This document shows, one piece after another, positions 56,992 to 62,212 of a stretch of 64,000 nucleotides of DNA. Position 1 is the first letter of the stretch, and the number at the start of each line of letters is the position of its first letter. The notes beneath the pieces are model-generated. The model did no database searches, had not been told where the DNA came from, and saw only the letters and a list, made by a program, of their open reading frames with translations. Made by a program: the position numbers and the translations under genes. Origin of the DNA: Rubrivivax sp. (GTDB lineage: Bacteria > Pseudomonadota > Gammaproteobacteria > Burkholderiales > Burkholderiaceae_C). The stretch covers positions 1 through 64,000 of the forward strand of contig JAHBZS010000005.1 of NCBI GenBank assembly GCA_019635285.1, read 5' to 3'.

Positions 56992-59154
56992 TCAGGCTTC
57001 GCGCTCGGCGTTCGCCGGGTGCCCCACGCTGCGCAGGTCCTGCGACACGCGCCCGCCATGCAGCGCCACCACGCGGCCGGCGCTGGCGATGGTCTCGGGC
57101 CGGTGCGCCACGATCACACGCGTCAGCGCCAGCTGCCGCACCGCCTGGTTGACCAGCCGCTCGCCCTCGACATCGAGGGCGCTGGTGGCCTCGTCCAGCA
57201 GCAGGATCTTCGGCCGCTTGTACAGCGCACGCGCCAGCAGGATGCGCTGCTTCTGCCCGCCGGACAGGCTGGAGCCCATGTCGCCGATCAGCGTGTGGTA
57301 GCCCATGGGCATGGCCTCGATCTCGTCGTGCACCGAGGCCACGCGGGCGCAATGCACCACCCAGTCCATGTCGGGCTGCAGGTCGAAGAAGCTGATGTTG
57401 TCGGAGATCGAGCCGGAAAAGAGCGGCTCGTCCTGCATCACCACGCCGATCATGTCGCGCCAGGCGCGCAGGCCGAGCTGCGTCAGCGGCACGCCGCCGA
57501 CGAGCAGCTCGCCGGACTGGGGCGCGTGGATGCCGAGGATGACCTTCAGCAACGTGGTCTTGCCGCAGCCCGACGGGCCGACGATGGCCACCGATTCGCC
57601 GGGCTCGATGCGCAGCGATACCCCCGACAGCACCTCGGGTTCGGCGTCGGAATAGGCAAAGCTGACGTCGCGCAGCTCGATCTCCGGTATGCCGCTGACC
57701 TTGCGCCCGTGGTGGCCGGCGGCGTCCTCCTGCTCGGGTGCGGTCAGCACGATGTCGGCCAGCCGCTCGCCTTGCAGGCGCAGCATCTTCAGTTCCACCA
57801 CCTTGTCGATCAAACCACTGACGCGGGTGGCGAACTGCTCCTTGTAGGCCATGAAGGCGAAGAGCATGCCCACCGAGAACTTCTGGTCCAGCACCAGCAG
57901 CGCACCGATCCACACCACGGCCACCCGCTCCAGCCCGAAAAGCAGGCGGTGCAGCGCCGAGAACAGCAGATCCAGCTTGCGCGTGGCCAGGTCGGCATTC
58001 ATCGTGTCCACCACCAGGCTGGTGAAGCGCGACTGCCGGTCGGCCTGCGCATTGAACAGCTTGATCGCCTGCACCCCGCGCAGCGATTCGAGGAAGTGAC
58101 TGGACTTCTTCGATTCGTGCACCAGCGCCTCTTCGGTGGCGTCGCGCAGCGGCCTGAAGAAGGCCCAGCGCAGCAACGCATAGGCCGCCACCGCGCCCAG
58201 CACCACCGCGGTCAGCGTGCCGCTGTAGACGAACATCATCGCCAGCGTCAGCACCACCAGCAGCCCGTCGAGCACCGCCTCGATGAAACTGGTGGTCAGC
58301 GTCTTCTGGATCTCGTGCACCGCAGAAAAGCGCGACCAGATGTCGCCGATGTGGCGCTTCTCGAACCACTCCACCGGCAGGCGCATCAGGTGCGCGAACA
58401 CGTTCGCCAGCCACTGCAGGTTCAGCGTTGCCGACAGCACCAGCACGGCCCACGAACGGATCGCCGCCGTGCCGGCCTGGATGAGCACCAGCAGTCCGAA
58501 GCCCACGCCCAAGGTGGCCAGCAGGTCGCGGTCGGCGCTGACCAGCACGTCGTCCACCACCCACTGCATCAGGAAGGGGCTGAGCAGCATGAAGGCTTCC
58601 AGCGCCAGCGCCAGCACGAAGATCTGCGCCAGCGAGCGCTTCAGCCCGGTGATGCGGCCCAGCATCTGGCGCGGCGAGACATGCTGCTTCTCGATCCGCG
58701 GCTCGAAGTCGGCCGCCGGCGTCAGCTCCAGCACCACGCCGGTGAAATGGCGCGACACCTGCTCCAGCTTCAGCCGGCGCAGCCCATGCGCCGGGTCGTG
58801 GATGGTGGCGACGCCGCGGCTCACGCCCACCAGCACCACGAAGTGGTTCATGTCCCAGTGCAGGATGCAAGGCTGTTCCAGCTGGGCCAGGTCCTCGATC
58901 TCCGCACGCAGCGCGCGCGCGTGCAGCTTCAGGCTTTCGGCCATGCGCACCAGATCGAGCAGATTCACGCCCTTTAGCGACAAGGAGAAGCGCTGGCGCA
59001 GCGTCGGCAGGTCGGAGCGGTGCCCATGGGCCGCGGCCACCATCGCCAGGCAGGCCAGGCCGCACTCTGCGCCCTCGGTCTGCAGGATCACCGGCACGCG
59101 GCTGGAGCCGAAGCCCAGCCGCAGCCCGCCCCACTTGCCGAAACGCCCGCTCAC
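56992..59154 (-). CDS. C39-peptidase ABC exporter (PCAT) of double-glycine peptides
   Basis: A 720-residue peptidase-containing ABC transporter. The N-terminal C39 cysteine protease has an intact triad: C31 in [12 protein letters not shown]104 in [10 protein letters not shown] and D120 in IHDPAHG. It should cut substrates after Gly-Gly. A membrane domain with about six helices follows (about 160-440). The ATPase has Walker [13 protein letters not shown], signature LSGGQKQR and DEATSALD. The start is GTG 59154, after GAAGGG. Preceded by an HlyD adaptor and a GG-leader peptide gene, it forms a type I-like export system. A 16-bp palindrome overlaps its stop codon. Confidence 0.93.
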
Positions 59155-59212
59155 GAAAGCGCCCTTCGCGCGACACGCTCCGCAACGTGCGCTGGGGCGT
59201 GGCCCGCTGCAC

Positions 59213-60478
59213 TCATAACCGGTTGCCCAGGCCGAGCACCGGCGCAAACAGCCATTCGATCAGACGCCTGCGCTCCAGCAGCACGTCGGCCTCCATGCGC
59301 ATGCCGGCGACCAGCGGCTGCGCGACGCCGAACGCCTTCAGCTCCGGGTAGTCCATGGCCACGGTGATGCGGAACATCGGTTCGGCCGCGCCGTCCACGC
59401 CCGTCGGCACCGCCAAGGGCAGGCCGGCCAGTTCGGGGGCCGCCAGAGGCGTGCGCGACACCTGCAGCACATGGCCGGTCTGATGACCGAACTTCTGGTA
59501 CGGAAAGGCTTCGAAGCGCAACCGCACTTCCTGCTGCGGCCGCACGAAGCCCACCGCCCCGGAAGGCGCGAACAGGTGCGCCTGCAGATGGGCCCCCGAT
59601 GGCACCAGGCTGGCCAGCGCCGAGGCCGGCGACACGCTTTGCCCGGGCTCGGCCAGCACCGAGCTCACCGTACCGTCCTGCGGCGCCCGCACGACGATCT
59701 GGCGCACCGCGTCCTGCTCGGCCGCCTCCCGGGCCAGCGCGGCAAGATCCCTTTCGATCGCGCCCTGCCGAGACTTCAGCTGCACCGGCAGGCCCCGACG
59801 CTCGCCGTCCAGCACGGCCCGGTCGCGCGCCAGCGCGGCGCGCTGGCGCTCCATGGCCTGGGCCTGCACCTGCAGTCCCAACACCTCTTCCTTCTTGGTC
59901 TGCACCTGGGCCGGTGAGATGAACTGGTCGCGGCTCAGTGATTCCAGACGCTCCAGTGCTTGCTGCGCCAGCGCCAGGCGCTGACGATGCAGCGTCACCT
60001 CGGCCTCGACCTGCATCTGCTCGCGCGCCATCGCGTCGATGCGCCGCTGCAGCGACAGCATCTCGCCTTCGGCCAGCTGCGCCTGCTGGCGCGCGGCGTC
60101 CTCGAGGCTGCGCTTGCGCTCGTCCAGGCTGCGCTGCACACGGGCCTGCACGTCGGCGGACAGCGTGCTGCTTTCCAGCGCCAGCACGAACATCACGTCG
60201 CCGGCATGCACCGCCTGCCCTTCCTGCACGTGGCGCTCGAGCACCCGTCCCTGCACCGGCGGCACCAGGCGAATGACCCCGAGGTCGGGCACCAGCACAC
60301 CGCCGATGCGCGCCTTGCGGGTGTATTCGCCAAGGAACAGGAAGGCCAGCACCAGCGCCAGCACACAGACGACGCTGAGCGTGTACACGGTGAGCGACAG
60401 CGGGCGCACGAGTTGCACCTGGCCCAGCCAGTTCTGACGCTGGGCCTCGGCGACCTCGGGACGAAACAGCGAGGACAT
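59213..60478 (-). CDS. HlyD-type periplasmic adaptor protein
   Basis: A 421-residue membrane-fusion protein for the C39 exporter encoded 58 bp downstream. A single N-terminal membrane helix (about residues 28-50), a lipoyl half-motif (GRVLERHVQEGQAVHAGD), a long coiled-coil hairpin (about 110-260, rich in Ala, Gln, Leu, Arg) and the second lipoyl half (VRAPQDGTVSSVLAEPGQSV) are visible. It links the inner-membrane exporter to an outer-membrane TolC-like channel, which is not in this window. The start ATG 60478 leaves the terminator and palindrome outside the gene; a longer start at 60598 is possible but would place both inside it. Confidence 0.88.
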   Translation of the reverse strand: MSSLFRPEVAEAQRQNWLGQVQLVRPLSLTVYTLSVVCVLALVLAFLFLGEYTRKARIGGVLVPDLGVIRLVPPVQGRVLERHVQEGQAVHAGDVMFVLALESSTLSADVQARVQRSLDERKRSLEDAARQQAQLAEGEMLSLQRRIDAMAREQMQVEAEVTLHRQRLALAQQALERLESLSRDQFISPAQVQTKKEEVLGLQVQAQAMERQRAALARDRAVLDGERRGLPVQLKSRQGAIERDLAALAREAAEQDAVRQIVVRAPQDGTVSSVLAEPGQSVSPASALASLVPSGAHLQAHLFAPSGAVGFVRPQQEVRLRFEAFPYQKFGHQTGHVLQVSRTPLAAPELAGLPLAVPTGVDGAAEPMFRITVAMDYPELKAFGVAQPLVAGMRMEADVLLERRRLIEWLFAPVLGLGNRL

Positions 60479-60540
60479 AGACACTAGCGCCGTCCCCGTC
60501 GACGACAGGCTCGACCGCCGCTCGCGACCGAGGGGGCGAC

Positions 60541-60556
60541 GCGCTTGATCAAGCGC
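60541..60556. promoter_or_regulatory. Perfect 16-bp palindrome upstream of the adaptor gene
   Basis: GCGCTTGATCAAGCGC is fully self-complementary. It lies between the peptide terminator and the HlyD start, where an operator for exporter expression would be expected. Its binding protein is unknown. Confidence 0.4.
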
Positions 60557-60561
60557 AAACG

Positions 60562-60589
60562 AAAAAGCGGACCGGACAAGCCGGCCCGC
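60562..60589 (-). terminator. Intrinsic terminator after the GG-leader peptide gene
   Basis: On the minus strand, GCGGGCCGG-CTTGT-CCGGTCCGC forms a 9-bp stem with one G-U pair and is followed by TTTTT. It lies about 105 bp after the peptide stop and before the adaptor gene, so it would make most transcripts peptide-only, with some readthrough into the exporter genes. Confidence 0.78.
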
Positions 60590-60693
60590 GGACATCATGG
60601 CAGGCCATCAAGCCAACCATAATGCCAATCAGCCTAGGTGCACATCACCAAGTACCCCTAGGCCTCTTGATCGTGGCCCGAAGGCCGGTAGGT

Positions 60694-60846
60694 CTACTTC
60701 CTGTCCCAGCCGCCCTTGGGCAGCCCCCCGGCGACCTTCTTCAGGTCGTCCAGGTCCAGCACAACCGGTCCGCTCTTGGCCGGCTTCTTCTCCGCAACGA
60801 CGTCGGCGGCAGTCTTCTTCTTCTTTGGGGCAACTGCTTTCTTCAT
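60694..60846 (-). CDS. Double-glycine-leader peptide with a 9-residue core
   Basis: A 50-codon gene found by reading the sequence; AAGGAG lies six bases before the ATG. The N-terminus is Lys/Ala-rich (MKKAVAPKKKKTAAD…). Residues 28-41 (VVLDLDDLKKVAGG) form a typical double-glycine leader with spaced hydrophobic residues, after which a C39 peptidase should cut. The remaining product is LPKGGWDRK (42-50), much shorter than usual bacteriocins. It lies between luxR and the HlyD-C39 exporter genes, with a lux-box-like site upstream and a terminator downstream. A signal peptide, a modified peptide and an antimicrobial are all possible; which one is unknown. Confidence 0.8.
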   Translation of the reverse strand: MKKAVAPKKKKTAADVVAEKKPAKSGPVVLDLDDLKKVAGGLPKGGWDRK

Positions 60847-60922
60847 GAGGACTCCTTCTGGTTCGGCCTGTGCGACCGTCCGCGCACGTCTGCATTGCAG
60901 CAGCGGTAGTGAAGAAAGAACA

Positions 60923-60938
60923 CTGTCAGCTCTTACAG
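60923..60938 (-). promoter_or_regulatory. Lux-box-like site upstream of the peptide gene
   Basis: CTG-N10-CAG (plus-strand reading CTGTCAGCTCTTACAG) lies 77 bp before the peptide ATG. It shares 13 of 16 bases with the site at 61744. This is the expected half-site pattern for LuxR-type regulators, such as the one encoded next door. Confidence 0.62.
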
Positions 60939-60979
60939 GGTGAGCCCTTGACGCGACAGCGTGTCGGCACCGCTGGGCG

Positions 60980-61693
60980 TCAGTGAATCAACCCGAGTCG
61001 CAGTGCCTTCAGCACGGCGGCATGCTTGCTGGCACAGCCCAGCTTGTGCATCGCGTTGTTGACGTGCAGCACGGCGGTACGCTCGCTGATCCCGAGTATC
61101 GCGCCCACTTCCCAGGCGGTCTTGCCTTCCATCGTCCAGTGCAGGGCCTCCAACTCCCGGGGCGTCAGCAACGGCCTCTCCGGCTGCATCGGCTCGGGCA
61201 GCAGCAGGCGCAGCGCCGCTTCCTGCGCATGCACCGCAAACAGCTGCAGGTCGGCCACCACGCGTTGCAGCTCGGCGGCATCGCCCGGCAACGGCTTGTC
61301 GCGGTCCACGCCCAGCACGAAATGCCGCCCTTCGGGCAGGTGCAGCGCCATGGCAATGCCGGTGTTGAAGCCGAAGCGCGCCTGCTCCTCCCACAGCTCA
61401 CCCATGCCCTGCACGGTGTAGGTCTGCTGGTCCCAGATGATCGGCACGCTCTGCTTGCGGCAATGCTGCATCACCGGGTCGCGGCGCATCATCTCGACGT
61501 CGCGGAAGGTGCTCGAAAACTCCTGCGGCGTGTTGTCGACACTGATGAAGTCGGTGCCCGCGAGGCCCCGATCGACCACGGTGACCGCGGCCACGGTATC
61601 GAAGCCGAGGCGCTGCGCAAAGCGCACGATCTCATCGCGGAACTCGTCGCGGTCCTTGGCTTTGAGCACGGAAGAGTAGCCGCCGGGCAGCAT
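60980..61693 (-). CDS. LuxR-family regulator with autoinducer-binding domain (solo)
   Basis: A 237-residue LuxR-type regulator: an N-terminal autoinducer-binding domain (about 20-160) and a C-terminal helix-turn-helix (LTPRELEALHWTMEGKTAWEVGAILGISERTAVLHVNNAMHKLG). Relative to LasR/TraR, the conserved D-P (D72, P73) and W87 (PIIW) are kept, but the positions of W57 and Y61 are both Phe (F59, F63). It may therefore bind an acyl-homoserine lactone variant or another ligand. No LuxI synthase is in the window. The start could be ATG 61693 or a TTG at 61723. It likely acts on the flanking CTG-N10-CAG sites. Confidence 0.9.
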   Translation of the reverse strand: MLPGGYSSVLKAKDRDEFRDEIVRFAQRLGFDTVAAVTVVDRGLAGTDFISVDNTPQEFSSTFRDVEMMRRDPVMQHCRKQSVPIIWDQQTYTVQGMGELWEEQARFGFNTGIAMALHLPEGRHFVLGVDRDKPLPGDAAELQRVVADLQLFAVHAQEAALRLLLPEPMQPERPLLTPRELEALHWTMEGKTAWEVGAILGISERTAVLHVNNAMHKLGCASKHAAVLKALRLGLIH

Positions 61694-61743
61694 CAGAATG
61701 CCCCAAGTGCTCCAGGACGCCAAAGCTGCCGCCGGCGCGTGCC

Positions 61744-61759
61744 CTGACAGGGCTTACAG
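61744..61759 (+). promoter_or_regulatory. Second lux-box-like site, upstream of the 138-codon gene
   Basis: CTGACAGGGCTTACAG shows CTG-N10-CAG and is nearly the same as the site at 60923-60938. It lies in the divergent region between luxR and the unknown plus-strand gene and could control one or both. Confidence 0.6.
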
Positions 61760-61795
61760 CTTCCAAGGGCTGCGCCATTCCGGAAACATACCGGC

Positions 61796-62212
61796 ATGTT
61801 CAGCACCTCGAGTCCTTCCGACCCCTCACACATGACTCCCACCACACCTTGGTCCATCCGGGCGTGGCCCCCCATATTGTGGCAGGCCGGGCGCGAATCG
61901 CAATTGCACTTCCACCACCTCAGCACACGCGTCACCATGCCGGGCGACAGGAAATCGCGCACGGCAGGCCAGACCATCTGGGGCGGGCACTCCGCCGCCG
62001 GTGAGGCCGGTGTGGCCTGGGACTGGGTGCAGGTCTGCGGTGAAGTCGTGGCCATGGCCGATCCGATGTGCGTGGTGACCAACCTGCGCCTCGTCGGCGA
62101 GGAGGGTGAAGTGTTGACCGCGCTGGAATCAGCGCGCTTTCTCAACGAGATCGTGCACGCGCTGCCTTGGCAGACGGAAGTGCAGCGCGCCCTGCAGGTG
62201 GGCGAAGCCTGA
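61796..62212 (+). CDS. Hypothetical protein beside the luxR-peptide locus
   Basis: A protein of 138 codons if read from ATG 61796, or 126 from ATG 61832. The second start would suit a promoter at the lux-box-like site, since the first would leave almost no 5' leader. Soluble, with no signal or membrane segment. It contains GVAWDWVQVCGEVVAMADPMCVVTNLRLVGEEGEVL and ends in an amphipathic helix (LNEIVHALPWQTEVQRAL). I do not recognise the family. Its divergence from luxR and its own lux-box-like site suggest it belongs to the same regulon. Confidence 0.7.
   Translation: MFSTSSPSDPSHMTPTTPWSIRAWPPILWQAGRESQLHFHHLSTRVTMPGDRKSRTAGQTIWGGHSAAGEAGVAWDWVQVCGEVVAMADPMCVVTNLRLVGEEGEVLTALESARFLNEIVHALPWQTEVQRALQVGEA

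Follow-up and report, generated by a model that had tools for sequence, protein, structure and literature searches.

An encoded hexapeptide as candidate ligand of a LuxR-type receptor in Rubrivivax and its relatives

Introduction

What does a LuxR-type regulator respond to when the gene that it appears to control encodes a very short peptide? LuxR-type receptors are the textbook sensors of acyl-homoserine lactones (AHLs), and for many LuxR solos no ligand is known. We examined this question in a stretch of 64,000 nucleotides from Rubrivivax sp. (GCA_019635285.1, contig JAHBZS010000005.1, positions 1-64,000, forward strand; hereafter the window). Here luxR, a peptide gene, hlyD and the gene of a C39-peptidase ABC exporter all lie on the minus strand upstream of mnmG, and an rsaM-like gene lies divergently from luxR on the plus strand. 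The initial annotation of the window had described LuxR, a glycine-glycine (GG) peptide, a terminator, HlyD and the exporter as a one-stranded, LuxR-solo-controlled peptide export locus; profile and open reading frame (ORF) evidence bears out its parts, and lux boxes and synteny in relatives bear out the whole. Beyond that description, we found the rsaM partner, precursors with repeated units and evidence for the peptide as ligand of LuxR. On the basis of sequence comparison, we suggest that the locus quite probably encodes an autoinduction circuit whose LuxR ligand is a ribosomal hexapeptide, X-P-x-x-x-W (LPKGGW in this locus), in place of the AHL.

A hexapeptide is the conserved unit

The peptide precursor (60694-60846, minus strand) has 50 residues, a GG leader of 41 residues followed by LPKGGWDRK. 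This nine-residue core had initially been taken as the peptide; across relatives, the conserved and repeated unit is instead the hexapeptide, encoded here at 60706-60723 (minus strand), and short charged tails like DRK are found in the closest kin (L013-L015). In L013 and L014, whose LuxR is 90% identical, the precursor frame, the GG and LP[KR]GGW are all retained. Neither Pfam nor NCBIfam profile searches matched the precursor at 60694-60846; likewise, no Pfam family matched the precursors of eight relatives (one padded row disregarded), and no NCBIfam family reached its cut-off for three precursors.

From 175 LuxR genes we curated 138 precursors, one of which is doubtful (that of the second LuxR of L125); the other 37 genes were dropped for lack of a candidate, because of a contig end, or as paralogues without a box. 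The unit stands after the GG, at the C-terminus, at both places or in repeats, with 1-7 copies per precursor (e.g., five of GPNGGW in L011, four of LPRGTW in L023, seven of GPRGTW in L078 and three of LPKSGW in L055). An xPx(2-3)W motif is present in 124/138 precursors, and 112/138 end in W. At least two units occur in 50/138, and in 44 of these 50 all units are identical. Identical unit pairs make up 93/100 of the pairs within precursors versus 31/1225 of those between precursors. The codons of repeat copies in these 50 precursors differ by 159 synonymous versus 11 nonsynonymous changes, which indicates that selection acts on the hexapeptide itself. Since the PxxxW motif was used in choosing the precursor ORF, counts over curated precursors are biased, and the region after the lux box (see below) served as control: an ORF ending in PxxxW-stop follows the box in 106/133 loci, versus 0/133 reverse complements and a mean of 0.75/133 in dinucleotide shuffles.

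Unit type co-varies with the ligand-binding domain of LuxR

Across LuxR-peptide pairs, unit type follows the ligand-binding domain (LBD) of LuxR, with no co-variation detected for the DNA-binding domain (DBD), RsaM, HlyD or C39. The partial Mantel correlation of unit and LBD given DBD is 0.25 over 121 pairs (0/2000 permutations as high), whereas that of unit and DBD given LBD is -0.09. When LuxRs more than 93% identical are removed (108 left), the former remains at 0.24 (0/1000 permutations as high). In a joint regression on LBD, DBD, RsaM, HlyD, C39 peptidase and ABC distances (90 loci), the LBD alone is significant.

The signal is enriched in the part of the LBD where AHL receptors bind their ligand. 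Positions are given below by their LasR equivalents, in the customary TraR and LasR numbering and with standard side-chain volumes. A general list of LasR pocket residues contains 8 of the 15 top-ranking among 151 variable LuxR columns. With pocket residues taken from the docking tables of PMC12061423 and from passages of PMC10613653, 7 of the top 15 of 153 columns belong to the LasR pocket (p=4.6e-5). Peptide position 1 is coupled to LasR positions 115, 116 and 127, position 3 to 60, 69 and 101, position 4 to 52, 56 and 64, and position 5 to 70. The last of these, LasR-70, is presumably a pocket residue; it is absent from the passages of the two papers used.

The coupled sites, which are enriched in the LasR pocket, show complementarity of size and charge. 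Peptides with Thr5 have Gly at LasR-70 in 29/32 cases, while those with Gly5 have it in 0/56 (Trp, Met, Tyr and others being found instead). Asn3 goes with Lys at LasR-101 in 11/13, and Lys or Arg at position 3 with K, R, H or Q there in 0/71; Gly1 goes with Phe at LasR-127 in 14/16. Side-chain volumes are negatively correlated in all 8 pairs tested, from rho -0.80 for 5/70 to -0.19 for 3/69, the weakest. Tests of dependent versus independent evolution, run on a tree from which the tested columns had been left out, gave descriptive p-values of 3.5e-15 (5/70), 7.9e-10 (3/101), 2.3e-10 (4/64) and 5.9e-9 (1/127), and also of 0.0019 (1/115), 0.0058 (1/116), 4.7e-6 (4/56) and 8.3e-6 (3/60), compared with 0.57, 0.62 and 0.68 for three of four mismatched-pair controls. 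When relatives were left out, peptide position 5 was best predicted from column 70 (0.67-0.69 versus a 0.52 baseline), and prediction of position 1 was also helped. The Rubrivivax locus itself fits this pairing, L-P-K-G-G-W standing beside a receptor with Met70, Phe64, Thr56, Phe60, Leu101, Ala115, Met116 and Val127. A held-out check was thin, as 42 further loci (L284-L325) yielded only 5 new LuxRs: L316 has Gly at LasR-70 and four LPRGTW units, as the 5/70 rule predicts; L295, with LPKGGW, has a fitting Met at 70 and breaks the 4/64 rule (Met at 64, Gly at 4); and L303 (a degenerate LPSSW), L320 and L296 have no scorable unit.

Could the association of LBD type and peptide type reflect shared ancestry, or the exchange of linked cassettes, rather than binding? 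The two genes adjoin, the sampled genomes are related, the permutation tests ignore the tree, and the tested pairs were chosen post hoc. However, the DBD-coding part of luxR separates the LBD from the peptide gene, yet no association of the DBD with the unit is left once the LBD is accounted for; this argues against simple linkage, which predicts the opposite. The tree-aware tests with their mismatched-pair controls, and the enrichment of size- and charge-complementary sites in the pocket, likewise speak against ancestry, and we consider this explanation highly improbable. As the sole cause of the pattern, linkage or shared ancestry was rejected on the DBD result, the tree-aware tests and the pocket enrichment. 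Moreover, co-variation of peptide positions 3-5 with the pocket led us to reject the idea of a precursor of an X-Pro diketopiperazine. The co-variation strongly suggests that the LuxR pocket recognizes the hexapeptide, so that the peptide is probably the ligand of LuxR rather than merely its target.

The receptor has an AHL-receptor fold with changed contact residues

The LuxR gene occupies 60980-61690 (minus strand; ATG at 61690, ORF open to a TTG at 61723), and its product matches Autoind_bind (1e-24) and GerE (6e-15). Its AlphaFold model (pLDDT, the model's confidence measure, 90.5) has QscR, LasR and RhlR as best matches in the PDB, with SdiA and TraR as further ones. Among the 121 LuxRs, the position of LasR W60 (TraR W57) holds Y in 72, F in 42 and W in 5; the positions of LasR Y56 and S129 are changed as well, while D73 (119/121), P74 and W88 are kept. 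Receptors of the LuxR family that respond to non-AHL ligands and have changed pocket residues exist (passages of PMC4414361), and the changed AHL-contact residues would not by themselves prove that AHLs are unbound. A search for LuxI (PF00765) gave no match at the locus or in the own genome (94.5% complete), nor in 69 more of the 80 genomes that carry the system. The 14 control genomes gave none either; the family is detectable by this search, as the matches in the remaining system genomes (see below) show.

A conserved lux box precedes the peptide gene

The paired lux-box-like sites, noted initially, hold up. The pattern CTGTAAGNNCTGNCAG, with at most one mismatch allowed, occurs twice in the window, exactly both times (60923-60938 and 61744-61759), versus 0.07 occurrences expected. 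The first occurrence is part of the lux box CCTGTAAGAGCTGACAGTG (60921-60939, minus strand), the probable operator of the peptide operon and the only match with fewer than three mismatches in the own genome (one strict site). A box scoring at least 15/19 against CCTGTAAGAGTTGACAGTT follows 133/145 luxR genes (LuxR at least 55% identical). The second occurrence, the dyad CTGTAAGCCCTGTCAG (61744-61759, minus strand), lies between rsaM and luxR; a similar dyad is found before luxR in relatives, with a best score of mostly 13-14/19 versus 9-13 in shuffles (132 loci), and the exact pattern is found in only 12/132.

When the loci were aligned on the box, an extended -10-like element emerged, TGCTGCAAT in Rubrivivax (60894-60902, minus strand), which a sigma-70 scan had not matched as a promoter. 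Counted from the box, C36 T37 G38, T40 and A43 A44 T45 are each 86-100% conserved over 132 loci (T37 92%, G38 98%, T40 97%, A43 97%, A44 100%, T45 97%), and these bases would place the centre of the box near -42, a position that we compare with the spacing of class II promoters. The distance from the box to the chosen start is 86-104 nt in 94 of the 106 loci with a PxxxW-stop ORF. The identity of the operator is thus supported by conservation, and activation from it would be expected.

The strict pattern is present in 54/62 genomes, versus 0/62 for the reversed control pattern; 43/62 have exactly one, and 41 of these 43 lie behind luxR by their coordinates. As a separate observation, extra strict boxes in L264, L266, L281 and L283 lie upstream of long ORFs with signal-peptide-like N-termini, and L281 and L283, which belong to the same genus, have one target in common. 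These ORFs are possible output genes of the circuit.

Export, leaders and leaderless forms

The likely export machinery is encoded downstream of the peptide gene. The HlyD-type periplasmic adaptor (ORF 59213-60598, minus strand; HlyD_3 1e-18) is similar to its relatives only from residues 24-44 on and probably starts near 60478. The C39-peptidase ABC exporter (56992-~59154, minus strand; Peptidase_C39 4e-35, ABC_membrane, ABC_tran in Pfam) has an uncertain start, its ORF being open to a TTG at 59247. Cys, His and Asp of its C39 domain (C21, H94 and D110 of the exporter alignment), which we take to be the catalytic residues, are invariant in 4 aligned orthologues.

A terminator-like stem-loop (60567-60589, minus strand), placed after the peptide gene and ahead of the likely HlyD start, may act by attenuation, setting the level of the peptide over that of the exporter; similar structures are present in 20/93 loci versus 2/93 shuffled ones. 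The reading of the peptide as a translation attenuator or arrest peptide was rejected, given the repeats within one ORF and the several exporter-less versions that are followed by a terminator-like stem.

The presence of a leader tracks that of an exporter. The initial annotation had expected the peptide frame and its GG to be kept in relatives with the exporter, and all 107 precursors (out of the 138) with an adjacent HlyD and/or C39 gene match the GG/GA leader pattern. A further 18, including the doubtful one of L125, have neither leader nor adjacent exporter, 13 have a leader alone, and an adjacent exporter never occurs without a leader. Where a leader-bearing locus lacks an adjacent exporter, a C39 exporter is found elsewhere in the genome in 10/10 cases (within ~15 kb in two), versus 2/15 main-clade genomes whose peptides are leaderless (Fisher p=2e-5); the sister clade has it in 2/4 genomes, and controls with an adjacent exporter in 3/3. 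The threshold of this search was E<=1e-90, and some of the genomes are incomplete. In L349 the C39 exporter gene beside luxR (G350:C2:101584-103686) has one in-frame TGA, and other C39 matches lie elsewhere in that genome.

At some exporter-less loci the leaderless ORF has a single unit and only 9-23 residues; minimal genes are MQATHQTQTTTLLPRNGW (L032) and MQAVKTVSTRPVQLPRAGW (L041), and multi-unit leaderless precursors reach 62 residues. Where LuxR belongs to a sister clade (42-54% identity; L129-L141, L217-L221 and L334-L338), a different dyad, CTACAAG...CTTTGTAG, accompanies short, leaderless and often amphipathic peptides, examples being MWDAICELLGLPRTGGW (L338) and MICLPRVGW (L221); some of them lack the final W (LPRLGG, LPKLGG).

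These forms bear on two other explanations. In the first, LuxR controls a bacteriocin or microcin secreted through C39/HlyD and itself senses an AHL of neighbors or another small molecule, the peptide being mere output. GG-leader bacteriocins and class II microcins do share the leader, the C39-ABC exporter and HlyD; the cores vary, the leader of one relative weakly resembles the XyeA family of ribosomally synthesized and post-translationally modified peptides (RiPPs; E 0.04, 14.1 bits, cut-off 33), and LuxR keeps D73, P74 and W88. What sets the locus apart from such bacteriocins are the identical tandem hexapeptides, the short leaderless relatives without exporter and the co-variation with the pocket of the regulator. 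Also, among the recognized genes from luxR to mnmG none looked like a gene of its own for immunity or modification, nor was an immunity gene conspicuous among those between the ABC2 gene and mnmG, small ORFs not having been searched for this; a RiPP with a modification enzyme was rejected, as none was recognized beside the peptide gene in the window. We judge membership among the bacteriocins unlikely, and the explanation as a whole improbable. Of the initial alternatives, signal or weapon, it is the signal that fits, the weapon being less supported on these same grounds.

The second explanation keeps the peptide inside the cell as a cofactor of LuxR, a folding aid or inhibitor whose level is lowered by export, so that the circuit would gauge growth state or export capacity rather than density. 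In its favor, LuxR should reside in the cytoplasm, the leaderless ORFs at their shortest (MICLPRVGW of the sister clade, for example) approach a bare ligand, and 13/15 main-clade genomes with leaderless peptides have no exporter match at the threshold given. Against it stand the 107/138 precursors that combine a GG/GA leader with adjacent HlyD and/or C39, the exporter present elsewhere in 10/10 genomes of leader-bearing loci without an adjacent one, and precursors of 4-7 copies, which resemble signal amplification. We give this explanation, too, only a slim chance compared with an exported hexapeptide signal.

Gene neighborhood and distribution

The neighbors of luxR in the window are RsaM, peptide, HlyD, C39, ABC2 and MnmG genes, and an Rfam scan of the locus gave no match. 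The RsaM homologue (61832-62212, plus strand; ORF open from 61796) matches DUF4902 of Pfam at 2e-4, with 21.7 bits where the family cut-off is 25. Its AlphaFold model (pLDDT 85.6) matches nothing in the PDB at E<=0.001 except both chains of 4o2h, an RsaM homologue (Foldseek E 5.6e-5, prob 1.00; TM, the structural similarity score, 0.69).

When 299 genomes of the family were searched with the peptide, 5 matched, including the own one. A first set of LuxR loci consisted of 80 named loci, the best 80 of 165 relatives; a wider search found LuxR in 102/399 genomes of the family at E<=1e-40, of which 100 regions were fetched. Record titles of the first 80 loci name Rubrivivax, Methylibium, Rhizobacter, Piscinibacter, Roseateles, Mitsuaria, Ideonella, Aquabacterium, Leptothrix and many metagenome-assembled genomes. 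Across the order, 3/399 genomes matched at E<=1e-50 (the own, one of the same family and one of another family, with 43% identity), and tblastn of LuxR against plasmids gave no match at E<=1e-30. Among 175 non-duplicate LuxR genes, in counts that take in contig ends and tandem paralogues, 107 have RsaM, HlyD and C39 nearby, 46 RsaM only, 6 HlyD and C39 without RsaM, 2 RsaM and C39, 1 C39 only and 13 none.

Two further arrangements were observed. In L123-L127, 3-5 LuxR paralogues stand in tandem, and one peptide gene was identified in each array, which may reflect receptor expansion or eavesdropping. L263 (G509), from another family of the order, has a LuxR of 43% identity, with an RsaM-like reading frame and a site resembling a lux box close by; no peptide gene was identified in it.

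Relation to known systems

The arrangement of rsaM and luxR has a described counterpart. Among the rsaM-luxR topologies in the passages considered of PMC10710839, type 6 is a divergent pair of rsaM and a luxR solo in Pelomonas, Thauera, Kinneretia, Albitalea and Xenophilus, the same arrangement as in this locus; the word "peptide" is absent from the text of that paper, and the peptide gene would supply the partner that the pair lacks. The LuxI/LuxR systems with RsaM treated in the same passages resemble the locus in the LuxR fold, the lux box before the signal gene and the RsaM neighbor. They differ from it in that no luxI is found here in the locus or genome, that the gene under the box is the hexapeptide precursor, and that the W60 position is Y or F in 114/121 receptors.

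The nearest precedent for peptide sensing is PipR (PMC4981722, in part). LuxR solos of the PipR/OryR type are, according to that source, LuxR homologues that answer peptide-like inducers, although externally added peptides are weak (Ser-His-Ser at 1 mM or more), and a table of PMC10134790 gives an ethanolamine derivative as the PipR ligand. There the peptides come from outside, while here the peptide is encoded beside the receptor, often repeated, and co-varies with the pocket. The proline iminopeptidase and peptide-uptake genes that flank PipR/OryR genes are not among the neighbors in this window. In the portions considered of PMC10134790, a review of LuxR solos, Rubrivivax, Roseateles, Mitsuaria and Methylibium are unnamed, and we found no description of a LuxR with an encoded peptide ligand in the titles and abstract openings returned by searches of open-licence PMC articles, preprints excluded.

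In Gram-positive bacteria, peptide pheromones are either exported through GG/C39 systems (ComC type) or act on cytoplasmic receptors (RRNPP). The locus shares with them an encoded short peptide whose type matches the receptor, ComC-like GG/C39 export and an RRNPP-like cytoplasmic regulator. Like a pheromone, the encoded peptide follows the type of the adjacent receptor, as co-variation and complementarity show. The receptor, however, is a LuxR (Autoind_bind and GerE) rather than a histidine kinase or a tetratricopeptide repeat (TPR) protein, which separates it from RRNPP, and the host is a betaproteobacterium. The circuit appears to work like a peptide pheromone system, yet without the LuxI of AHL systems and the TPR receptor of RRNPP, and would thus be a new kind of system.

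A proposed autoinduction circuit

In the circuit that we propose, the hexapeptide would occupy the LuxR pocket that in AHL receptors takes up the lactone. The LuxR-peptide complex, bound to the lux box at about -42, would switch on the peptide-HlyD-C39 operon in positive feedback. C39/HlyD would then export the precursor and cut it after the GG, as the known roles of these families suggest. Multi-unit cores and C-terminal tails would be trimmed to the hexapeptide, which would re-enter the cell, perhaps through an oligopeptide permease. RsaM, by analogy with AHL systems, may damp the loop. Species would use differing hexapeptides, each matched to its own receptor, a matching established here as a statistical pattern across sequences.

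Several points weigh against this circuit. Of the 138 precursors, 14 lack xPx(2-3)W (5 with P-x4-W and 9 without W in the unit, of the PRVS, PRVG, PRAG and PRIGGL types). Taken overall, the correlations are modest, with a rank r of 0.18 for the LBD, and the permutation nulls do not preserve phylogeny. The p-values of the dependence tests are descriptive because the pairs and residue groupings were picked after viewing the tables, and one of the four mismatched-pair controls reached 0.046. A count of co-changes on a tree including the tested columns gave only a moderate excess for the pocket (mean z 0.82 versus 0.02 for other columns, p=0.004), and leave-relatives-out prediction is weak for position 3 and near baseline for position 4. 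LuxI exceeds its cut-off in 10/80 system genomes, so that AHL sensing is possible in some, and no further target common across genera appeared among 20 extra strict-box regions fetched. No exit route is evident for leaderless peptides where the genome lacks the exporter, and there the signal might be intracellular. Finally, all the evidence is computational.

Despite these points, we think it likely that, in Sphaerotilaceae and their kin, one lineage of LuxR-type receptors has exchanged lactones for ribosomal hexapeptides. This would be a Gram-negative pherotype system with a readable lock-and-key code (peptide positions 1, 3, 4 and 5) and with exported as well as leaderless versions, down to a product of 9 residues. 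If so, Gram-negative bacteria would have a class of peptide quorum sensing built on their best-known receptor family, and genes of only 9 codons, easily overlooked by annotation, would acquire a defined function. The ligand of each such receptor could be read from the adjacent DNA and checked with a cheap synthetic peptide, and the natural receptor-peptide pairs would provide a specificity code for orthogonal sensors in laboratory strains.

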